Positions 10,446-33,500 of a DNA stretch of 64,000 nt are shown piece after piece; within the stretch, counting starts at the first letter, position 1; each line of letters begins with the position of its first letter. This DNA comes from Patellaria atrata CBS 101060. Taxonomy: Eukaryota; Ascomycota; Dothideomycetes; Patellariales; Patellariaceae. The notes under the pieces were generated by a model. The model did not search any database and was not told the origin of the DNA. It saw only the letters and a list, made by a program, of their open reading frames with translations. The translations under genes were made by a program, and so were the position numbers. The DNA lies in NCBI GenBank assembly GCA_010093705.1, contig MU006119.1:73002-137001 (forward strand), given 5' to 3'.

Positions 10446-10759
10446 TTGCAAATTTAGGTTCTTCGAAGATTGTAAGGTAAACTGTTCTGAAAGATATTGA
10501 TTAGTTCAGGTTCAGACGTCCTGCGCACAAAAAAATAAGTGTTTGAGCTTGGACATATCTTATCGATAAGAAGCTTTTAGTGTTTCTACTTTCTACTTTC
10601 CACTGCGGGAAAGCGGGAAAGAGATCGTGTGCCTACAATGGAATAAAGCACTAATTTATATCTTCAACAACTCATCTTCATATATCCATCTATTATCTGG
10701 CAGAACCAAATTTCCAATTCTATTTCTAAATCTCTTTAATACCTTTGAACTGCTTCGCA
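10446..10759. promoter_or_regulatory. ESF1 upstream region
   Basis: A 314-bp gap between the ESF1 start and the stop of the next minus-strand gene. It contains pyrimidine-rich stretches and a purine-rich block, gcgggaaagcgggaaaga, near 10605-10622. No specific regulatory motif is claimed. Confidence 0.35.
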
Positions 10760-11092
10760 CTACCCATGACTTGGCAAAACTTTGTAAAGTGAGTTCATAA
10801 AGTTCTCCACCCCTACGACTCCGACATATTGTGGCATAACAGCTCTCAATTGACGTTCATAGCCGACGAAATGTATCCATCTTTGTTCTCCTTTCACTAG
10901 GAGGTTCTTACGCCATTTTGAAAGCGCGTACGCTCTCCGAGAAGAGGAAGCAGCGGTTGCAGCGCGATTATTCGGTGCATACCTCCCGATCCGGTCAGTT
11001 AACCCCCAAATTACCTCGAACGGATTCCACCAGACCACACTATAACTGTCCTTGTATCTTGCTGATGGGACTCGGTGCGTAGGAGGTGGCAT
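10760..11092 (-). CDS. Small hypothetical protein, 110 aa
   Basis: Uninterrupted frame from an ATG at 11092 to a stop at 10760. The composition looks protein-like rather than random: aromatic block SYSVVWWNPFEVIWGLTDRIG at about 16-36 (not quoted further), basic middle with RRAYALSKWRKNLL, and a hydrophobic end with YVGVVGVENFMNSLY. No signal peptide or clear membrane span is visible. The family is not recognised. It is transcribed away from the tautomerase gene, with about 650 bp between their starts. It could be an exon of a longer gene, but no better upstream exon was found. Confidence 0.5.
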   Translation of the reverse strand: MPPPTHRVPSARYKDSYSVVWWNPFEVIWGLTDRIGRYAPNNRAATAASSSRRAYALSKWRKNLLVKGEQRWIHFVGYERQLRAVMPQYVGVVGVENFMNSLYKVLPSHG

Positions 11093-11744
11093 TTGACTTG
11101 GATGCTCTCTTCAAATTGACTGAAGTATCCCTCGGCCTCTCTATTTCTCCTTACTCTTTACGGCTACATCTCGATATGATGGTAATTTGGACGGCGCAGG
11201 CAACAAAGCATAGTGATAATAACTTCTTTTGTTCAAAAAATGGCGTATAATGGGGTGCTAAAGCATTCGCGGGCGTTCTATTTTTTTTTCGGGTGGGTCA
11301 TTTTGTTGGCTATCAGATCATGACTTTTTGAACATTGACATTATATTCATCATCAGGCACTACCCTCACTAGGCTTTTCCAGTTGTCCATTATTCTTAAC
11401 ATTGTTTCTCTGTTCACTCTGTACGAATCTTCCTAATATGCAAGATTCGTCTAGTTCCCGTACTCCTTCACTCGTTCGGCATACCGCCGATTTCACAACG
11501 TCATGATCGACAGTGAGCGACACACATGTGTCTACCTTGAGATTCCAGCACTACCATACCTTACAAGTTATCTTCCGTATGCAAGAGGGAGAAAGACATT
11601 TGACTTGCGGTAACTTGAACATTGCCCCTCTTAACATACTCTCATTGTCAGTGTACTATATGATCCCCGTGGACGGCCCACTTCCCTTTTTCCAGGACTT
11701 CAACCTCATATTCTTTGAATTTTACTGACCTTCGCACCACCATA
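11093..11744. promoter_or_regulatory. Divergent intergenic region
   Basis: Upstream space of the 110-aa hypothetical (-) and the tautomerase-family gene (+). A T-run lies near 11281-11288. No gene or repeat was recognised. Confidence 0.4.
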
Positions 11745-12327
11745 ATGCCTGTCTACGAGATCCACCACTGTATTGACATATCAGATTCTCAGAAGGACCA
11801 ACTAGCAGAAGCTATCACCAAGCTCCATAGCTCGCGTTTCACAACCCCATCGCTCTTTGTTAACGTTCGCTTTCACGACTCATCCTCAATACCGCATTAT
11901 GTAGCAGGAAAAAGGGTATGTACACCTACCTTTCGTACCAATTTTTATCCGTAGCCCACCAGCCGGTTCGGAATCGAAGCTCACATAAACTCACATACAG
12001 AAATCGTTCAACATCATAATTGTCCATCTCCGGCCCGGTCCAGACCGGCCTCGCTCCGCGCTTGACGCTCTCACAAACTTCCTCACAGATCTCTGGAACA
12101 CCATCATGTCGCCCTCCTCCACCTCCGAGAAGCTTCACACTACTTTCCTTCTCAACACCATCGCCGGCGGTCAGGAAGCGGGTTTTCTTCTTCCTGAAGC
12201 GGGAAATGATGTTGAGTGGGTGAAGGATAACTTGGCTGAATTTGAGAAAAGAGCGGGGGAAAAAGAGGAAGATATTGCAGACTTACTAGATGAAGTGAAA
12301 AAACGCAAGGTGTTTGGTCTCGGATGA
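11745..12327 (+). CDS. Tautomerase-superfamily protein (cis-CaaD-like / fungal oxalocrotonate tautomerase type)
   Basis: Two exons, 11745-11915 and 12001-12327, give 165 aa. The 85-nt intron starts GTATGT and ends ACAG, and the frame is continuous. The protein begins MPVYEIHH. In this superfamily the initiator Met is removed and Pro becomes the N-terminal catalytic base, so MPVY is diagnostic. The two beta-alpha-beta halves are visible: MPVYEIHHCIDISDSQKDQL, then NVRFHD; and KSFNIIIVHLRPG, then the helix SALDALTNFLTDLWNTI. The length suits the fused fungal tautomerase family (Tautomerase_3 type). The substrate is unknown; fungal members may act on small keto acids or halo-acrylates, but nothing here fixes the reaction. 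It may be a free-standing cytosolic enzyme, as no targeting signal is visible. Confidence 0.87.
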
Positions 12328-12720
12328 GAAAGGAAGGGAGGTATGGCATCTACAAATATTGTGAGGAGGTATGAAGACGACTATCTAGGATACGAGGGGG
12401 ATGGAATGGGCTTGGATATTGAATAGGGGCCAAAGAGAAGATTATAATGATGTATACTAATACCAAGTGGTGTATTGACCATGGACTGGCTACTGAGAAC
12501 ATTTCTTCATCAGACATTACTCTCTTGAGTAGGAGGAACAGAATCATTATTGTTGAAGGTGTTGAAGTACTCACATATCGCACAAAGGAAAGAATGATTT
12601 ACAACTAGCATACATTGCAGGCGGCTTAGATCGGAAAAGTGCGGTATAGAGTTATTTCCCGAATAGCTTTACCGAAACTGGGGACATGGACATCAGTGTT
12701 TCCACAACTGCCAAACCAAC
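12328..12720. other. Intergenic, tautomerase 3' flank to tRNA-Ile
   Basis: No gene seen. It contains the tautomerase 3' UTR and the upstream flank of the first tRNA-Ile gene. Confidence 0.5.
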
Positions 12721-12858
12721 GGTCGGTTAGCTCAGTTGGTTAGAGCGTAAGTTAAATTGTCCATCCCACATATTATAACGTCTAACATATCACCAGGTGG
12801 TGCTAATATCAATTGATATGATACGCCAAGGTCGCGAGTTCGACCCTCGTACTGACCA
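12721..12858 (+). tRNA. tRNA-Ile(AAU) with canonical 14-nt intron and an extra 50-nt mRNA-type intron
   Basis: The mature parts fold as a standard tRNA: acceptor GGTCGGT (12721-12727) pairs with ACTGACC (12851-12857), discriminator A12858, D-arm TAGCTCAGTTGGTTAGAGC, anticodon stem TGGTG/CGCCA with loop C-U-AAU-A-A, T-arm GCGAG-TTCGACC-CTCGT. Anticodon AAU is at 12805-12807. A 14-nt intron (12809-12822) sits at the canonical place after position 37. A second insertion, 12747-12796 (50 nt), lies near position 26/27. It starts GTAAGT, has GTCTAAC eleven nt before its end, and stops CACCAG. Removing both leaves 74 nt, matching the other copy. T-runs follow within about 10 nt (TTTT near 12864), as expected for a Pol III terminator. 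A-box and B-box (GGTCGCGAGTTCGACCC) are intact, although the insertion separates them further than usual. Confidence 0.88.
12747..12796 (+). other. Spliceosomal-type intron inside tRNA-Ile
   Basis: This 50-nt insertion is absent from the sister tRNA at 13853-13940. It has a perfect U1-type donor (GTAAGT), a fungal branch site (CTAAC, branch A at 12785) and a CAG acceptor. Its size equals that of nearby protein-gene introns (50-57 nt). It is not at the canonical tRNA intron position. Whether it is spliced, and by which machinery, cannot be told from sequence. Confidence 0.8.
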
Positions 12859-13852
12859 TTCACTTTTGCACTTTTATTTTTAACTTTAGGCGACTAAGTA
12901 TATTATAATGTTGTCGGCGCTCTACTATTTTGCTCTCTAGGTGTACCTATCAGAAATTTAGAGCTCACTAAGTATAGTTATATTTTTGAGATGCTATTTA
13001 TTCTAGCTTAGCTATAGGGAACACGGTCCCGTTAGAAACAAGGTAATTATAGCACCTGTCTTCTTTCTTATATGTTCACAAGTCTATCCCTTCCACTCAT
13101 GTAGACATTAACATCTGTAAACGACCATGTTCCATCTCTCCCCACCTAAGGAAGTATGCAGGATACCGACAGCGCTTAATCTAGGTTGAGGCAGAAGGAC
13201 CTTCAATCTTGTGAATGCACATGTAAATTCGAACTCTGGAAGGCCGCATCGCGAGATAGATACTGGCGAATAAGATACTGTAGGGATCCGAAATGCTCTT
13301 GTATGATGCTAACTCAAACCGAGTAGTTTGATGAACTATGCCTCTATGATCGTTAGGGAAACCTTTTTTTTAAGACATAATTGGCTTCCACTATAATTTG
13401 AAAGATAACATGAGTCAAATTGCTGTGATTTGAGTGACTTCTTGAATGACTATAGCTTAGAAACCCAGAAAACGTAAGTACCTTAACTGTATAAAAAAGT
13501 ACCCGGTATCTAGTCTAACTCATAGATGGAAATAATGTAAACTTGAAACGGATATTGAAGGACTGGAAAAAGAAGCTGGTAAGCAAATTATAAATAACTA
13601 CGATAGTGCTACCCGACCCGGGTTTCTTTATTACCTTAGTATATAGACTATTAAGGCGATGGACAAGCTTTCTAAGGAGTACTTTCAGATTCCGATAGCG
13701 TTATGATCGATCGATTATTAGGGTGAAAATTTATAATTTTCACTCTTACCTTATGTACTGATGAAAAGGGGTGTTTATACTTAAGAGTAAAAAGAAACTG
13801 AGAACAAAAAGTTAAGCACAAGAAAATGGGCAAAAAGAAAATTTGAGGATTA
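12859..13852. other. Spacer between inverted tRNA-Ile genes
   Basis: About 1 kb of moderately AT-rich sequence with no open frame of interest. tRNA flanks often collect retroelement scars, but none was recognised here. Confidence 0.45.
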
Positions 13853-13940
13853 TGGTCAATACGAGGGTCGAACTCGCGACCTTGGCGTATCATATCTACT
13901 GATATTAGCACCACGCTCTAACCAACTGAGCTAATCGACC
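13853..13940 (-). tRNA. tRNA-Ile(AAU) with canonical 14-nt intron
   Basis: On the minus strand, acceptor GGTCGAT (13940-13934) pairs with ATTGACC (13860-13854), discriminator at 13853. The anticodon AAU is at 13906-13904. A 14-nt intron spans 13902-13889, after A37. D-arm, anticodon stem and T-arm are identical to the copy at 12721. At acceptor pair 6-67 this copy has A-U where the other has G-C, a compensated pair that argues both genes are functional. A T-rich Pol III terminator follows (TTTTCTTTTT on the minus strand). This gene lacks the 50-nt insertion. Confidence 0.93.
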
Positions 13941-14042
13941 GATGATTATAATAACTTAGCAAATCTAAATACTTAACGAGCGCAAAATATTATGCATTGC
14001 AGCCCCTTCAAACTACTAGCTAAGGCGCTAGTCTTGGAGCTA

Positions 14043-14062
14043 TAAGGTAAGCTACCTTAGCT
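14043..14062. repeat. Short perfect hairpin
   Basis: TAAGGTA-AGC-TACCTTA forms a 7-bp stem with a 3-nt loop, upstream of the 786-aa gene. The significance is unknown; it may be chance or a footprint. Confidence 0.4.
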
Positions 14063-14220
14063 TGAGCTAAGGCGACCTTCAACATCCCTGCTCCAACCTC
14101 GAGCCTTGGCAAAAACTTTCTCGAGAGAACGATCTTGGACGATTGACGTGCAGGGAATAGTTACAGTATGTGCACGCAAAAGAGAGTCTCCAACTAAGTG
14201 ATCAGTTATCGGCGACCACT

Positions 14221-16685
14221 ATGGCCAGGAAGAAAAGATCATCTCGATCCGATATTTCTGCTACAAGTGCCGCCGAGTCATCATCGAGTCCTATGCCGCC
14301 CATAGTCACATCGAAAGCTTTAGACCCGCCTGTCTCTGGCAAGACATTCCAAAATACGACCAAGACACCACCTTCCACTTCGGCACTGATAATATGTCGC
14401 AACAAGTAGGTATTTATCGAGGCATGTCTTTGATATCATTACTCATTACCTGCACTCTTCGCACTTCTGTCAACTTGCGAACTCTATATTAACAGACTCC
14501 GGTTTCTAGACACTGGCGTTACATATCTTCGTTCCATGGACCTTGGCTACAACTACCACCGGAAGTTCTCGAAAGTCTTGCCCATAGCAATTACATATCC
14601 CCGCGACCACATCCCATAGACCCTGCTGTCTTCTATGACCTTGTCAAGATTCGTAAAGCTGTAGATGAAGCGACGAACCTGGCTGTACGCGCTACCAGTG
14701 GCCTTACCTCTGCAGCTCTAAGCAACTCCCTCAATGCAGGAAACGGCATACTTGGAGGTGCTGCAGCCCTGGGATTAGGGTATGGTGGAGGTGGGGGCAA
14801 TGCGAAATTGAGTAGAGAACGTAAACATAGGATGCGAGAACTGGCGACGCAAAAGTTATCCCAAGCATACCATCTCGATGAAATAGCTGCGAGTGTGGCA
14901 ACAATGCAGTCAGCGTCAACTTTAGAGGATGTTGCACAATATGTGCTAGAACGGAGTAGTGCAGATAGTGATGCGAAATACGTTCATTTTTTTCATGAAA
15001 AGATTCCAAGCAGGATGATGGCGCAGAATACACCCTTGGATCCACTGAACGAAATAATAGCTGAACGACCCACTGATGGAGCTCCGCTCAGGACAAGAGC
15101 CCTCACCAGAATGTTCAAGAACGATTATGCTAATGCCGCAAAAGACTTAACGGAGAGCCTGGCGGTTTGTCGATATTGGATGGCGCAGCACAAAGCAGGC
15201 AAGAATCAACTGGTACTTGCCAGGACAGTAAAGGGGGAAGTGGAGAAAAGGAGTTTCGGCAGAGACTGGAGGCAAGAAGTCAAGCTAGAGGAGGAAGATC
15301 AGCCAAGCAGTTTGGAGGCCCAATTATTGTTCCATCGGGCTGGTACGTATTTCGCCATCGCCTGTCAGCATATTCACTCTGCATTGGACGGATTGGAGAA
15401 GGCAGGAGGACCTGGACTGAATGGAGAGAATAATATCGTGTCTGGGGGTGACAGTCTGAAGACGCCACAATTAAGTGCCGAAGAGATAGAGGCTCATCAG
15501 AGACGGCTTGAAGAGCGAAAGATTGTCAAAACGAATGCAAAGAGGGCTATTCGAGATTACATTTCCTTCCTCTCTCATTTTGACTACACATCGGGCTTTC
15601 CGACCGAACTCGCGGAAGAATTCCTCCGCCGCGCAAATGTTGCCGCCAATGGTTCTGAAGAGACTCATCATATCTCTTCGCCTGTGCTTGGATCTTCTTC
15701 TCAGTCAAATGGTAGTTTATCAGATGCATTAGTCCCACACAGGGAACACCACCAGGAAAGACGTTCTGCGCCCAACTGGGCACAACTTCCACCTCCGCAG
15801 ATATACCAGCTCTCTTCGCTTTTCTCACCGAACCCTCCCCCTAACCTACCACCTTATCCTTCAGACTCAACTACCTTATATAAAACTGCGCCACAGTCTC
15901 AGTCCAATTCGCCGTCTGCGACAACCATGTTTGCCGACCCTCATGAAGCGATCACATATCATCCTCTTTTGACAGATGCTTTACATTCTCTACTTTTGTG
16001 CCATGCGCTTCTGCAGACATCTCCCAAGGAACTTCTTCGCCACGCCCACAATGCAGCTCGCCTCGCTCGGGTTTGTGACGGTTACCCAATTTTCCTTGCC
16101 GCTCGGTCGCCTAGTCGTAGCGACTGGATGGAAGTACTTCGAAGAGCGCACAATTGGATCGGCTTGTCCCAATCGTGGGAACAATTGTGTAAGCCTGCTC
16201 CGTTACCAGGTCAGAAAGAAGGAGCGGAGAGGACTGAAACAGAAGAACAAAAGAGGGAAAGGATGAAACATGAAGCGATCCTTGAAGCTCTAGCTGATGA
16301 TCGTGTTGTGGATGAAGAGAGTTTCCAGAAGGCTGTAAGAGCTAGAGAGAGAAGAGCAATGGAAGATGAAGAAGAAAGTAGAAACGCTAGCAGAAGTCCT
16401 AGGACTGACTCAGCCTCCCTTAACGGTAATCATACCAATGGAAACAGTAGTCCAGCAGATAGAGATCCGCCGCGAAGATGGGCTCAGGAAGATGGGAAAG
16501 AGTACCCAATATCTACAGAACGAGCGGAAGCGATTGCAAGATGGGTTAAGGAAGCGCCTTTGGTCATGGAAGGCGTCAAGAGAAAGGGTAAGAAAGGTGT
16601 GAAGGGAAAGAAGAAAGCAGGTTTAGAAGAAAGTGTAGACACATTCAGCGTTGAAGACCTAGGAGAAGTAGAGGAGCTTGATTAG
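14221..16685 (+). CDS. Conserved uncharacterised fungal protein, about 786 aa, TPR-like
   Basis: Two exons, 14221-14405 and 14510-16685. The 104-nt intron (GTAGGT ... TTCTAG) joins ICRNK to HWRYISSF with the frame kept; an alternative acceptor 18 nt upstream (AACAG) breaks the frame. The start MARKKRSSRSD is basic and serine-rich. The segment PWLQLPPEVLESLAHSNY resembles an F-box-like or helical opening. A glycine-rich linker (ILGGAAALGLGYGGGGG) follows. The next part looks helical and repeat-like: RTRALTRMFKNDYANAAKDL and later HPLLTDALHSLLLCHALLQ recall tetratricopeptide helices. The C-terminus is charged, ending in a basic GVKRKGKKGVKGKKKAG patch and an acidic tail. I believe it is conserved in Leotiomycetes-type fungi but cannot name a function. 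An alternative start (ATGTCGCAACAA, 14394) would use the other acceptor and omit the basic N-terminus. Confidence 0.8.
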
Positions 16686-17023
16686 CAGGTTGTAAGACTA
16701 GGGGTGTCCATATATTAGAGAACACGATTTGAGTACTATGATGAGCGATCGATCAGAGTTCACGGCATTTGTCCTAGTGGACATGGTGTGGTAAAGAAAG
16801 CAGTAGGCACATGTATAGCATAATTTCTTGTATTCCAGGACTAGATAGTACGTATGTCTTAATACTGACTGCTCCGTGCATGGGTAAAGGGTACCTTTGT
16901 ACCGTAAAGGGGCTGTCAGGGGTTAGGGCATCGTACTTCCACTTCCGGGGAGATGCCGACACCAAAACTTTTTGAGCCAGCGCTCTCCAACACTGAGCAT
17001 CTTAAACCTTATTAGAACTACCA
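16686..17023. promoter_or_regulatory. Intergenic, upstream of ASNSD1-type gene
   Basis: 338 bp between two rightward genes. No distinct motif is claimed. It contains the terminator of the 786-aa gene and the promoter of the next. Confidence 0.4.
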
Positions 17024-18884
17024 ATGTGTGGCATCTTCTTTTCTCTCAGTTCTTCCGATTTTATTGTCCCCAGTCCTCAAACCTTGAGACGACTACAGAG
17101 TAGAGGCCCCGATTCAACGCGTGAACATCGTGTTGAAATCCAAACTTTAGGCTTTACCCAGTCAGGGACCTTTTACCTATGCTTCGTGTCCACTGTTCTC
17201 TCCCTTCGAGGTGAGAATATCGTAGCTCAACCTCTGGTTGATGACGCTACAGGCTCTGTTCTCTGTTGGAATGGAGAGGCGTGGAAGGTAAATGGGAGCC
17301 CCATCGATGGAAATGATTCCAAGGCCGTCTTTGATCTTCTGCTCCAAGTATCCGCCACAACGAAGGCTCTATCACCAGATGGTAACTCTGGACCTGCCTC
17401 TAAAAATATTCTCGATGCTATTTCCAGCATAGCCGGACCTTATGCTTTTGTCTTTTATGATGCTCCCTTCAGAAGGATACTCTATGGTAGAGATTGCCTT
17501 GGGAGACGATCCTTGCTCTTCAGAGCTGACAGGACAGACGAAATCACTCTCTGTAGCATTGCTGATATTCCTACTACTAGAGGGTCATGGCATGAAGTTG
17601 AAGCAGATGGACTTTACGTATTAGGTTTGAATGATACTCAACTGTCCTACAGATTCGAAGATCAGAAAAACCCACGGTCAATATGTCCATGTCATGTGCC
17701 TTATCGTTCCTCGCCTTCGCGAGATGGGTCAAAACTCGAACTGGTTCGTCTCATCTGTACCTCGCTCCAGCCTTGTGATAGTCTCACACTCATTCTAGAC
17801 GCTACCATTCGGACCATTGAACAAGATTACCAGTGGAAAGATACTTAATTTAAATACAGATTCGCCCGCTATTTCTGCGCTATGCCATCATCTACGAGAG
17901 TCACTAGCTGATCGCATTTACAATGTGCAGCCTATTTCTAACAACTCAACTGATCCACTAACTCAATCTCACCCAAAAATAGCAATTCTGTTCTCGGGAG
18001 GACTTGATTGTACAATATTAGCTCGCATATCGCACGATTTATTACCCACGGAAGAAATTATCGATCTCCTCAACGTGGCTTTCGAAAATCCTCGAATACA
18101 CAGTAAAAGGATGCAGGACACTGTAAGCTCATGTATTTATGAACTTTGCCCAGATAGAGCTACGGGGCGAGCATCGTTTGAAGAGTTGCGAAAGGTCTGT
18201 CCGCAAAGAAAGTGGCGCTTTGTTGAGATCAACGTTGCTTATGAGGAAACTCTTGCGCACCGTCAACAGGTGATTGAGCTAATGCACCCTCATAACACGG
18301 AGATGGATCTTTCTATTGCCCTCGCTCTCTACTTTGCTTCGAGAGGCAGAGGAATCCTTGAAGGTACTTCCTACGAAACACCCGCCCGTGTACTCCTTTC
18401 AGGGCTTGGAGCAGACGAGCTCTTTGGCGGATACCAACGCCATGCTACTGCATTTGCTCGTAGTGGCTACACAGGCTTGATCGATGAAATTGAACTCGAC
18501 ATCAACCGATTAGGAAAGCGTAACCTTGGACGTGATGATCGAGTTATATCTCACTGGGGCAAGGAAGTTAGGTTCCCATACCTGGCTGAAAAACTGCTCT
18601 CCTGGGCTCTTTCTATACCTGTTTGGGAGAAATGTGATTTTGCAGATTCAGATCTTCAAGGGAGCGGTTCTAATACTGGAGTAGAAGCTGGAAAGAGGAT
18701 TCTACGCTTATTAGCAGTGAAGTTGAACATGGTTCAGGTCGCAAAAGAAAAGAAACGAGCGGTTAGTGACCCATGAATTTTTAGTTTTACAATAATTCCT
18801 GACTGCTGCATTCAGATTCAATTCGGTGCTAGGACGGCAAAAATGCAAATAGGGAAGACAAGGGGCTCCCAACCCATATGTTAA
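17024..18884 (+). CDS. Asparagine synthetase domain-containing protein (ASNSD1 / YML096W type)
   Basis: Three exons, 17024-17743, 17799-18761 and 18816-18884, each a whole number of codons, give 583 aa. The N-terminus MCGIFFSLS has the Cys2 of class II glutamine amidotransferases, with the RGPDS block at about 29 and LCWNGEAW further on. The C-terminal synthetase-like part has the PP-loop LFSGGLDC at 304-311 and GADELFGGYQRH at 444-455. The family is related to asparagine synthetase B, but its true substrate is not settled. Intron 1 uses an unusual donor (GTTCGT, 17744) and ends TTCTAG; it is needed to restore frame and gives ELTLPFGPLNK. Intron 2 starts GTTAGT (18762) and ends TTCAG, joining KKRA to IQFGARTAKM, the conserved family C-terminus. 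Without intron 2 the frame stops early at 18776. Cytosolic, by lack of signals. Confidence 0.93.
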
Positions 18885-20538
18885 AATTGTAGGTTTTCGC
18901 CGTTTCTTTGCAAATATCGATGAGATGTCCCATGGCTATGATGACTGGGACCTCGGTCCCAGCAGATACTTGGTAGAGCAGATTATCAGGTCATACGTAC
19001 ACCAACTTATGCTTGTTCTGCGTTTTCGAGGGACTAACACCTCGTTAACCGCTCAACGTAACTTGTGTTACGCAAGTAGATTCTATATCTGTGGCCTCTA
19101 AAAGGGAAGTCTGAGCCACATCCTTCGAATTTTTACCTTAGTTTCCAAATTCCTCGCAAGTAGTGCTGACGATTAACTTTGATCTAGAAGGATTACTCCG
19201 GGAGACTACCTACGTCTGCTTGTTTCTAGGTTCGGAACTATCCAGTCGAACTTGATCTTCTTCACTTTCTCGGTGTATTCTCCTTTGTACCGGCCGCGCC
19301 ATCAAAGACCTTTGCAATTGTTAGGGGATATCATCTACTTTGAATACTGCGATAACCTGAGTCCTGTATGCTCTGATTTCTGTCCGTCTGCGATTCCCGT
19401 CCTTCTCGGCTTCAGGGCCGGGATCATCTTGTGTGTCGGATGTGTAGCACCCTAGCGAAATTAATTGAAACATGGCTCGAGCATCCAGTTCAAGGCCTCA
19501 AAGGCTAATTCGTACATGTTCTATGGGATTTCCGTGGGATACATGCTTCAATTCTAAGTCTGATCAATACTACATTTGAGTTATGAACATATTGAGTTAG
19601 TTATCGGCAAGGACGTTATATAATCAAGTACAACCTTTTTTTTCCAAGTATCCATGAGGACTATATGGAGGCTCTTGGCGCAGGACTGTATTTTTTGTAA
19701 ACGTCTCGAGAAAGACGTCCGTATCTTCGCCCTTTNNNNNNNNNNNNNNNNNNNNNNNNNNNNNNNNNNNNNNNNNNNNNNNNNNNNNNNNNNNNNNNNN
19801 NNNNNNNNNNNNNNNNNNNNNNNNNNNNNNNNNNNTATTTGATCTGTTTTGCAATATGAAAGAAAATCTCTTCCCTCCATCCTGCAGTTATATCTTATAC
19901 CAGTTTTAGCCATACATATTTCCTTATTTTACTAGGGCTTATAGCCCTATTGTATTTCCCTCTCCTGCCTTGCAGTTGAGTTTTTGGTCTGTTGTGGGTT
20001 GTATCTGGTGGGGTTTTAGTTGCAAGAAAGTGATCTTGGCACGGTGAAAACTCTGCCAATCTGGCTAAGCAGTGTGCGAAGTTTTCTTCAGCGCCCACTA
20101 TCAACAGCGCAATGCTGTATACCAGTATTGGACATGATCCTGATAAGCAGCTTGATCTAGAGATCAAAATGATACCAAAACCAACCCCCATATAACAATA
20201 TAGGTGGGATCATGATTTTGATGTTGCTTTTTCAAGTACAACCTATTTGTACCAAAGTACCCAAATTCCTGCCCCGCTCCCCTTTACTACCGTAGCCCTC
20301 CCTCACCTGAACAAGAAATTTTCAGTTCTCTCAATATCTAATCATCACTAAGAAATCGATGAATCTACTTGACTGGCCTCTGTTGCATATACGGTTGTTC
20401 ACACCGCGGCTTTCTACGCTTTATAGTATGTTACAGCCATCAGCTTGATGGATTTACGTCTTATTCCAATCAGGTAGCTTGACCGTACGACGTCTGTCTA
20501 ACGCCTATTAAAGTCCCTAAATGGCCTCAATATAAAAG
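18885..20538. other. Intergenic, contains assembly gap
   Basis: No gene was recognised. A run of 100 N occupies 19736-19835. The stretch opens the accessory island between the ASNSD1-type gene and PPG1. Confidence 0.5.
19736..19835. other. Assembly gap, 100 N
   Basis: Exactly 100 undetermined bases, the usual placeholder for a scaffold join of unknown size. Sequence may be missing, so distances across it are not reliable. Confidence 0.99.
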
Positions 20539-28867: not shown

Positions 28868-30042
28868 TTACAAGAAATACTCCGTCTGTACGTCTTTTCC
28901 TTGCTGTTGCTGTTCCGCCCTATGTACGTCGTTCTCGGGTGCTGCTTCAAAAACGTTGAAATATCTTTCACCCTTTTCACCAACTTCAAGTACGGACGCC
29001 ATATTACCGCAGCGATAGCAGTAATTCGGAGCACTCCAGACAGTAGATAGTTTACCATCGAAAAGTTCCTGGTAGCCTTCTTGACATAACTGATGTGCCC
29101 GTAATATGTGTGACATGCTATTCACTCCCAAGAACTTCTGGACAACCTGGCTCCCAAAGGTATACCCTGCACCACGAGGGGAAAGAGAGAATTCATCTCT
29201 TTCAGCATCAGGATCAGACCATACAAGATCCGCCATCGGCCCTTCGTGCGGGATTTCCCGGAACCTATCGATGATCTTGATTTGATCGATTGAATGTATG
29301 GATGGACTTAACCCACCATGAACGCAGAAAACATCATTATTAATGACGACAGAGAGTGTGAGGAAGTCGAACATGTCGGTGAAGTAGTGCCAAACGTTCG
29401 CATTCCCATACTTGCGAGAGCATTCAGTGTAGAATCCGTAAGACTGCGTGACACCCCTTGATTCGTGGTTGCCGCGAATCAGATGTACGCGGTGGGGATA
29501 GCGCAGCTTCAGACAGACAAGAAGAGATATAGTTTCGACGCTAAAAAGGCCACGATCGACATAATCGCCTACGAGTGGAGCATCCGTCAGCTAGCTGTTC
29601 GCCCCTCCGCACAATGTCTAATAAAGGTAGGATATTTAAACGGTAGGAGAGAATTGGGCGTAAGTCCCAGTAGCGGACATTCAGCGGTAATTAACACCAC
29701 AGGGTCGTGGGAAAGTATAGAGCCATACCTAGAAAGAGGTAGTTTGTATCAGGACACCACCCTCCTATTCTGAATATTTCTATCATATCGAAGAATTGAC
29801 CGTGAATGTCACCGACGACTGTTACTGGTGCTGATATGTGAACGACATTGCTCTCTTTCATAAGCAACTCTTTGGTTTTGGCGCATATTGCCTCGATGAC
29901 GGAATCTGCAAGTAACTCCTTGTTATAGAGGCGTGAAATACACTCATCGAGATCGACAGTAGCTATGAATGGCAGAGCGATTAGTTCTACAGCCCATTAA
30001 CATGCTGATTAGGTGAAATTCAATACCTGGGAGACCTGGCAT
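28868..30042 (-). CDS. PPG1: PP2A-like serine/threonine phosphatase PPG1
   Basis: Three exons on the minus strand, 30042-30027, 29962-29729 and 29568-28868, with introns of 64 and 160 nt, give 316 aa. The first exon encodes five residues plus one base (MPGLP). Metal-binding and catalytic blocks are all present: GDIHGQ at 56-61, GDYVDRG at 84-90, RGNHES at 115-120, and HGGLSP further on. The family-specific stretch IDRFREIPHEGPMADLVWSDP and the block NYCYRCGNMASVLE, with YFNVFEAAPEN, match PPG1 better than PP4 or SIT4. The C-terminus ends EYFL, the PP2A-class tail used for methylation and regulatory-subunit assembly. Yeast PPG1 works in a STRIPAK-like complex (Far proteins). It shares a divergent upstream region with the Q/P/H-rich gene. 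Confidence 0.94.
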
Positions 30043-30933: not shown

Positions 30934-33500
30934 ATGGCAGGGTATGGGCCAGCACCAGTATTTCAGCAGCAAAGCGCACCATACGGGAACGGTGTTGTTA
31001 GCCATGGCCAACCGGCGTATAACCATCATCAGCATGTTGCTCCTCAATATTCGCAGCCTCAACCGGCTTACAATCAACAACCATATGGGGCACAACCAGC
31101 ACCTCCTTCTCAGCAGTACCATCAACCTACCTACCAGCAAGGATATCAGCAGAGTAGACCCCCTCCTCATGCTCATCAACCCCCCAAGTAAGTTCTAACA
31201 TTCATCCAAACAAGACGAATAATTCCATAGACTTCCACATACTCTAAAAGAAGTTCATATCGATTCAATTTTTACTTACTGTGTTACAGCTCATACCCAC
31301 CGGCTAAGAGACATAAGGGTAACCCTGTAATCACGCGATATCCGCCGCCGCCCGGATATCAGACCTCAGGTGGAAGCCCTACCGGCCCACCATATCCCCA
31401 AAATCAATATGGGTCTCAGCAGAGCTATCAGCAAAGCTATTCACCAGCGCAAGGTTTTCAAACTAATGGCACTTATCTGCCTCCTCAGGGATATCAAGGG
31501 CCCCAACATCAGAACTACCAGCAGCAACATTCTAATACTTATCCTGCGCCCCAAAATTCAGGGTATCAAGGTCTACCACAAGGCTCTCAACAATGCTACC
31601 CACATTCTAAATCTTATCCCGCCCAAGATTACTCACAAACTCCCAATTATCCTCATCAGACGCATGGTTATCAGCAAACCTACACCCCGTATCCACCACA
31701 GAGCTCACCAACGGCCACTAGTCCCCAGCATGGATATCCTGCTGTCAGTTTGGAATGGACACAAGGTGCACACCAAGGTCACCCACAAGGCCACCAACAC
31801 GGGTTTTCACAAGAATTTTCGCAAGGTCATCCACAAGCACATATACAAGCTCATCCACAAGCTCATCCACAAGCTCATCCACAAGCTCATCCACAAGCTC
31901 ATCCACAAGCTCATCCACAGGGCTACCAGCAAGGTCATCCGCAAGGTTATTCAAACGGCCCTTTACAAAGTGCTCCACAGTGTGGTTACTCATATCCTGA
32001 TCAAAATAATTCTCAGCCACCTGCTCGCAATGGCCATGATGGCGTCACAGGACAAATATCTAGGAAAGTATCTGATCGCCGTGCTAGTATCAATGCGCAA
32101 CATCCGTCAATGAGCCATTACGATCCTAAGGAATTAATGGAAGACCGCAAGTTCTTCGAAGAAATTGATCGTAGGTATACTCCGAGACCTAATAACATGT
32201 CAATCTTTGTGGAATCAGACGATTGGGAATATGATTTTGATGGACCAATTTGGCCTAAAGGAACGGATCAGGTCGACCAGCAACTTAGCATTGGGGTCAT
32301 AAGTGAGTAATCCGACTCGCGTACGTGGATTGTTTATCTAATAAATGATCAGCATGGCATCCTGCTACAGAGGTTACACGGCCTTTAGCGTCAACTTTCG
32401 ACGAAGCAGAGGCGGCTGCTGCGCAACCTCCACCGCCTAAACTCGGTAATGGCAACTCCGTGTCTATATATTTCACTCTAGAGAACGACCACGAAGCCTA
32501 TCTTAATGTGAGGCAAACCGATGACTGGGTTCATGTCAAGGATGATCTGTCCTTCGTAGAATTTCCGAAGTACCCTCCATTGATTGCTCTTGACCTAGTA
32601 GTCTCACATCGTCTATCCCGCGGAGGTGAAAAAGACAATGATTTCCAAGAAATCAAGCCGGAAGACCATGATGACGGTTGGAACGTAATGGATAATCTTG
32701 AACAGGCGTTGGCCCGAAGTGACTACACCTCTGGGACCAAGTCAGATCACATGAGTGACAATACCTCCTTAACCGCGATAACACCTATATCCAAGACAAA
32801 GCCCAATAAGGATGAGACACAGGAAGAAATTCTTGCTCGGTTAGGTGTTACTGGATCTCCAAAAGCTGCATACCCGACACCTGGTCCGGCCTATCACTCT
32901 ACGTCAAAAAAGAGGTATAATTAAATTTATACATGTTACTTTCAGTCTCGTTCCTTGACTCACTGCTTTAGGTCATTCTCTCAGATGTCACCTTCTGAGG
33001 ATCAAACTTACCGAGAACGCGATGGTGGCTTCATACCAGCTCACCGCGGGTCAGTATCTCAGACAATCCCACCACCTCCTCCGCCTATCCGTCATCGTTC
33101 ACCATCGTATGATCCTTGGAAAGCAGACGAATTACCCAACCATCGTAGCTATGATGGCGCCAGGGAGAGCCCTGCGCGCTCCGATACGAGTCGTCACACT
33201 GCTGTTGGCCCCGATTTTGATACAGTTGCTGAGCCCAACGGTGTAAAGCCTAACGGTGCGGAGCTTAATCATACTTCGGATATCGAACCTGTCCTAGGAT
33301 CACCGAAGCTACAACGTGCTGACAGCAATCCCGGTCGCAAAAGGAGTCTAGCCGAGTACACTGAAGACTTGAAACGGCGACAAGCGGACGATGATACCAC
33401 CAAGAACAAACGACGACAGCCATCCGTAGCTGCTGCTTACAGGTAATGTCCAATCGCCTTAAAATTTATGATTCTAACGTGTTTTAGCCGTCGCTGGTAG
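30934..33500 (+). CDS. Q/P/H-rich uncharacterised protein, 770 aa
   Basis: Five exons: 30934-31187, 31290-32302, 32353-32914, 32972-33442 and 33488-33500. Introns are 102, 50, 57 and 45 nt with GT-AG ends, and the exons sum to 771 codons. The last exon encodes only SRRW (partly) and stop. The first 350 residues are low complexity (Q, P, Y, H), with tandem HPQA units near residues 265-296. A folded-looking middle part follows (RKFFEEIDRRYTPRPNNMSI, WEYDFDGPIWPKG, then VSIYFTLENDHEAYLNVRQ and LIALDLVVSHRL). The C-terminus is polar, with poly-proline IPPPPPPIRHR and a basic stretch (KRSLAEYTEDLKRRQ, KNKRRQPS). The family is not recognised. Nuclear location and condensate-type behaviour are possible from composition but inferred. 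Confidence 0.8.
31828..31920 (+). repeat. Coding 12-bp microsatellite (HPQA units)
   Basis: The unit catccacaagct repeats about seven times, nearly perfect from about 31852 to 31918, adding HPQA tetrapeptides in frame to the 770-aa protein. The near identity suggests recent slippage, so length may vary between strains. Confidence 0.9.

Follow-up and report, generated by a model that had tools for sequence, protein, structure and literature searches.

A candidate spliceosomal-type intron between positions 25 and 26 of a nuclear tRNA-Ile(AAU) gene in Patellaria atrata

Spliceosomal introns are tied to transcription by RNA polymerase II (Pol II), with exceptions in ribosomal RNA (rRNA) and in the U6 small nuclear RNA (snRNA), which carries such introns in some fungi including fission yeast. 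In 1990 Kohrer and co-workers reportedly placed a precursor messenger RNA (pre-mRNA) intron in a yeast transfer RNA (tRNA), from which the spliceosome is said to have removed it. Here we describe a nuclear tRNA-Ile(AAU) gene at 12721-12858 (plus strand) of a 64,000-nucleotide (nt) stretch of Patellaria atrata CBS 101060 (contig MU006119.1, positions 73,002 to 137,001), hereafter called the window, that is interrupted by a 50-nt insertion with the signals of an mRNA-type intron. The U6 introns are likewise of mRNA type and lie in an RNA made by Pol III; unlike U6, which is itself a component of the spliceosome, the host here is a tRNA. The likeness to the Kohrer construct lies in the combination of an mRNA intron with a tRNA transcript, although that construct was made in the laboratory and the present one is natural.

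We take the insertion to be a known class of intron in a new class of host gene, and its closest precedent is found among the rRNA introns of ascomycetes and lichens. The available excerpts of one study (PMC8527467) describe spliceosomal introns that sit in the ribosomal DNA (rDNA) of lichen fungi and are removed from the rRNA, and a 57-bp intron with the 5' site GUAAGU that was removed from yeast Pol I transcripts once a single donor base had been changed to the common yeast form. This shows that the spliceosome of ascomycetes is not confined to RNAs made by Pol II. The P. atrata insertion resembles these rDNA introns (Bhattacharya et al. 2000, as cited in the excerpts of PMC8527467; 57 bp in Cladonia grayi) in that it is short, starts with GUAAGU and resides in a structural RNA that is not made by Pol II. 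The rDNA introns are described in the same excerpts as requiring the spliceosome, whereas for the tRNA insertion we infer removal by this route. Their host is a Pol I rRNA; here the host is a tRNA gene of Pol III type, whose second intron calls for the tRNA endonuclease as well. Introns outside the canonical 37/38 site, sometimes beside a canonical intron, are also described for the tRNA genes of Cyanidioschyzon merolae, cryptophyte nucleomorphs and archaea (PMC4090602, PMC3978253, both in excerpt), and the insertion shares these features. The archaeal and C. merolae introns are cut at a bulge-helix-bulge by the tRNA endonuclease; the P. atrata insertion has mRNA-type signals instead. Among the matches listed in the open-licence literature, none describes, by its title and the opening of its abstract, a nuclear tRNA gene with a spliceosomal intron, and the excerpts of PMC13149111, PMC8216456, PMC13130702 and PMC10161547 had no bearing on the matter.

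The insertion occupies 12747-12796 and lies between tRNA positions 25 and 26, away from the 37/38 site. By comparison with a sister gene, exon 1 (12721-12746) supplies tRNA positions 1-25, and the remaining tRNA (12797-12858, positions 26-73 with the discriminator base last) is itself split by a canonical 14-nt intron, TCAATTGATATGAT, at 12809-12822, which ARAGORN called on a copy lacking the 50 nt. The 5' splice site GTAAGT is found at 12747-12752, a branch-site-like CTAAC at 12782-12786 with its branch A at 12785, 11 nt upstream of the insert end, and the 3' splice site CAG at 12794-12796, the last letters of the insert being CACCAG. The initial annotation had correctly given the limits of the insert, its GTAAGT, CTAAC and CAG and its location away from 37/38, and made no mention of the 14-nt introns in the two tRNA genes. 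Because GT follows the insert, its register is open to a slide of 0 to +2 nt, and of the three possible registers only register 0 has GT...AG borders. With GT and AG at the exon borders, a suitably spaced branch site and a length in the expected range, the insert resembles a U2-type intron in these respects.

The sister tRNA-Ile(AAU) gene at 13853-13940 (minus strand), identified with ARAGORN, Rfam and alignment, lacks the 50 nt and has its own 14-nt intron at the canonical 37/38 site. Removal of the insert leaves 88 nt, and these match the sister at 84/88 positions. The earlier statement that a cut at GT...AG restores the sequence of the sister thus holds closely, though not to the letter. 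In RNA folding the insert-free gene adopts a normal cloverleaf, and ARAGORN reports it as tRNA-Ile(aat) with a 14-nt intron. All four differences between the genes are structurally silent. Two lie within the 14-nt intron, in its 4-nt loop, and the two that distinguish the 74-nt mature forms are acceptor-stem partners, A6-U67 in the sister and G6-C67 in the interrupted gene. For two random substitutions, a restored pair has P = 0.0034, and the retention of all pairs P = 0.29. The broken stems or lost promoter of a decayed pseudogene were not seen outside the insert; the lack of damaging change in the 88 nt gives no sign of decay there, and it carries no information on when the insertion took place. 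Between their 300-nt flanks the interrupted gene and its sister show no convincing similarity (best expect value, E, 0.016, between non-corresponding flanks). That the mature parts differ at only 2/74 positions while the flanks are dissimilar argues for selection on both copies since the duplication.

The signals for Pol III are also in place. Judged against the general consensus, the A box, TAGCTCAGTTGG, lies at 12728-12739 and the B box, AGTTCGACCCT, at 12837-12847, and the spacing from A to B box is 97 nt in the interrupted gene compared with 47 nt in the sister. The first T4 3' of the gene, which resembles a Pol III terminator, is at 12864-12867, and no T4 occurs inside the gene at 12721-12858. 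Since T4 is present in only 3/8 of the protein-gene introns modelled below, an insert free of T4 fits Pol III transcription but is not telling. Once the introns are out, cloverleaf, promoter boxes and terminator are all intact, as in a functional tRNA-Ile(AAU) gene.

Annotation software may overlook genes interrupted in this way. With the insert in place, the Rfam tRNA model scored it at 38.3 bits against a cut-off of 29 bits in a permissive run of 10500-14500, and the Rfam run of the whole window missed it, as did ARAGORN with default settings on the unspliced gene. When long introns were allowed, ARAGORN called a tRNA-Asp(atc) with a 54-nt intron, which we rejected; its anticodon stem has one mismatch and two G-T pairs. 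In the permissive Rfam run, with E up to 5, the gene matched only the tRNA model and no group I, group II or other catalogued self-splicing intron. In the excerpts of its description, tRNAscan-SE 2.0 places the search for non-canonical introns within its archaeal mode (PMC8450103). Together with the ARAGORN results, this suggests that similar genes may hide among odd fungal tRNA predictions.

The splice signals of the insert are not those of random sequence. In 1,500,000 shuffles of the 50 nt, with sliding of the register allowed, a loose set of donor, branch and acceptor motifs arose 6 times and the strict set not once. Scanning both strands of 1-38000 (~76 kb, the part of the window with normal GC content) for GTAAGT/CTAAC/[CT]AG gave 2 strict sites, whereas 30 Markov sequences averaged 0.17. 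Both are on the plus strand, less than 800 bp apart: the insert itself and a 52-nt element at 13474-13525 with GTAAGT, CTAAC and TAG, which lies in the interval that separates the tRNA genes, outside any recognised gene, and has only short open frames as neighbours. Introns related to the 50 nt, a prospect raised by the initial annotation and one that an intron-forming element would hold out, did not emerge within the window; among the 20 best matches listed, those other than the insert itself were pieces of 10-17 nt with E of at least 0.81, the level of chance. Patterns of interrupted tRNA genes, with the splice motifs or with any insert of 35-65 nt, had 0 matches in prokaryote and viral collections, and an exact 32-nt piece of the uninterrupted gene had 0 in the viral collection, results that are uninformative on fungi.

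We compared the insert with eight protein-gene introns of the window, modelled by hand from reading-frame continuity and from protein motifs that were partly drawn from general knowledge. These lie at 1963-2014, 1566-1621, 1375-1411, 29963-30026 and 29569-29728 on the minus strand and at 32303-32352, 11916-12000 and 14406-14509 on the plus strand. Among the genes used for the models, database matches exist for those of the phosphatase and the dehydrogenase. An automatic search by codon scores gave a single doubtful site, which was dropped, and the many chance joins in the lists of candidate frame joins (36 rows in one list) were left unused. The modelled introns are 37-160 nt long (median 60), a range that includes the 50-nt insert. 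Their donors are GTGAGT (2), GTATGG (2), GTAAGG, GTATTG, GTATGT and GTAGGT, and their acceptors TAG (6/8) or CAG (2/8); GTAAGT occurs in 0/8, and CTAAC within 40 nt of the intron end likewise in 0/8. The view that the insert bears the signals and size of the protein-gene introns of this genome therefore stands for size and was overstated for the signals. Judged by its sequence, the insert is of the same class and size as the eight modelled introns and comes closer than all of them to the general consensus.

The borders of the insert were also scored for a bulge-helix-bulge, using a geometry taken from general knowledge. The 14-nt introns of both tRNA genes served as the control and gave an outer helix, formed by the anticodon stem, of 5/5 pairs, a C-G pair at 32:-3 and 2/4 core pairs, consistent with canonical 37/38 introns. 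Across the three registers of the 50-nt insert, the core helix formed 0/4, 1/4 and 1/4 pairs and the outer helix 1/5, 3/5 and 3/5. In this test, which had been proposed with the original description, the motif is absent at the GT-AG borders (0/4 core pairs), and the outer-plus-core sum of 1 in this register falls in the lowest class among 20,000 shuffles. The slid registers reach a sum of 4, which is unremarkable since 3503/20,000 shuffles scored in the GT-AG register did the same.

From these features we lean towards the view that the 50 nt is a U2-type spliceosomal intron gained in a Pol III-transcribed tRNA-Ile(AAU) gene, which the spliceosome would remove before the tRNA endonuclease takes out the 14 nt. 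Its origin may have been reverse splicing or an intron-forming element, as the initial annotation proposed. Directed by the intact internal promoter, Pol III would transcribe the 138-nt gene and end at the T4 at 12864, and the spliceosome in the nucleus would read GUAAGU, CUAAC and CAG and excise the 50 nt. Excision would restore the normal spacing of the D and anticodon arms and allow the tRNA fold to form, upon which tRNA endonuclease and ligase would take the 14-nt intron at 37/38 out of the folded precursor. The endonuclease step is placed second because this enzyme requires a folded tRNA body. That the locus represents a natural nuclear tRNA gene needing two splicing machineries in series, the spliceosome at 25/26 and then tRNA endonuclease and ligase at 37/38, we judge to have about an even chance.

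Several results weigh against this assignment. The last base of exon 1 is C, and the typical proto-splice site has AG at the exon end. In the predicted fold of the unspliced RNA the insert pairs with the exons, and such pairing could hinder splicing. The compensatory change at 6:67 may be older than the insertion. The eight modelled introns have signals that are different from, and weaker than, those of the insert, and a looser motif set gave 8 sites in the scan of 1-38000 compared with 4.1 (standard deviation 2.7) in the Markov sequences, so that enrichment is not clear. The strict element at 13474-13525 lies outside known genes, which indicates that such signals occur nearby beyond recognised exons. 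The bulge-helix-bulge test is not sharp, as the control 14-nt intron itself forms only 2/4 core pairs. Read-through by Pol II is possible from a same-strand gene that ends 393 bp upstream of the tRNA, at 12327. Finally, insertion in one of several synonymous tRNA genes is the usual picture for a pseudogene, according to the excerpts of PMC4090602.

The main alternative builds on this last point. The insert would be spliceosomal in type by origin, with the tRNA copy silent or its transcript unspliced and degraded, and the sister or other copies would supply tRNA-Ile(AAU). We regard this as possible, if rather unlikely. Just one of the two copies in the window is affected, insertions of this kind are supposed to be pseudogenes in the excerpted text of PMC4090602, and the predicted pairing of the insert with exon parts points the same way. 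Outside the insert the 88 nt are free of damaging substitutions, and the A box, B box and terminator are intact, which speaks for a working gene, although a recent insertion in a redundant copy would spare the rest of the gene in just this manner. The three splice elements are still near-perfect, however, and an unused insert would lose them over time.

It is improbable, in our estimate, that the 50 nt is instead an intron of a Pol II transcript running across the tRNA and is spliced there, either in the 3' untranslated region of the upstream gene, which encodes a tautomerase-like protein, or in a non-coding RNA. Beyond the possible read-through, this explanation could draw on the second strict site at 13474-13525, downstream on the same strand, but the open frames beside that site are short and its flanks show no more folding than shuffled sequence does (z 0.7 without the 52 nt, 1.0 with it), and a structured RNA there was rejected. 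The ends of the insert coincide with the interruption of the tRNA relative to the sister, and the restored tRNA would be left unexplained. The upstream gene itself (11745-12327, plus strand) is small and has one 85-nt intron; tautomerase-like is the family we take it to belong to from the look of its N-terminus.

An ectopic intron of the tRNA-endonuclease type, as in Cyanidioschyzon merolae or in archaea at 25/26, appears very improbable. The excerpts of PMC4090602 give 25/26 as a known archaeal non-canonical site and report coexistence with canonical introns, and those of PMC3978253 describe many nucleomorph tRNA introns that likewise have no defined bulge-helix-bulge. Endonuclease-type identity of the 50 nt is nevertheless unlikely given the missing bulge-helix-bulge at the GT-AG borders and the 1/4 core pairs in the slid registers, and GTAAGT, CTAAC and CAG would have to be a coincidence that the strict set did not yield in any of the shuffles. 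A chance insertion that resembles an intron, whether repair filler or the scar of a mobile element, could account for the GT at both ends as a short target-site duplication, but it is the hardest to credit in view of the shuffle test and of the matches listed for the 50 nt elsewhere in the window, none of which exceeds chance level.

If the preferred reading of a spliceosomal intron in a tRNA gene is true, this natural case would extend the exceptions to Pol II dependence to very short, fast-folding transcripts and would offer a clean test of whether splicing needs a capped Pol II RNA. It would also offer an intron gain that looks recent, with a paralogue lacking the intron 1 kb away. Dependence on two machineries, if true, would couple the supply of this tRNA to the activity of the spliceosome.

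Elsewhere, the protein genes of the window include a type II NADH dehydrogenase, ESF1, a UbiA prenyltransferase, an adaptin and a PP2A-type phosphatase. Together with the short introns they point to a fungus, probably one of the filamentous ascomycetes. In the permissive Rfam run of 10500-14500 the one match besides those of the two tRNA genes, to SNORD37 at 13719-13779, had 19.6 bits (cut-off 45) and E 2.4 and was taken as chance. The two halves of an asparagine-synthase-like gene at 17006-18776 (plus strand) are in different frames near 17.8 kb, where the search for an intron gave none that was convincing, and an assembly gap of exactly 100 N occupies 19736-19835. From 38000 to 64000 no closed open frame of 120 codons is listed, and the DNA shifts abruptly to extreme AT richness, with 2-24% GC in 2-kb steps and 2% at 40-42 kb; this part of the window looks like a heavily mutated AT-rich block.
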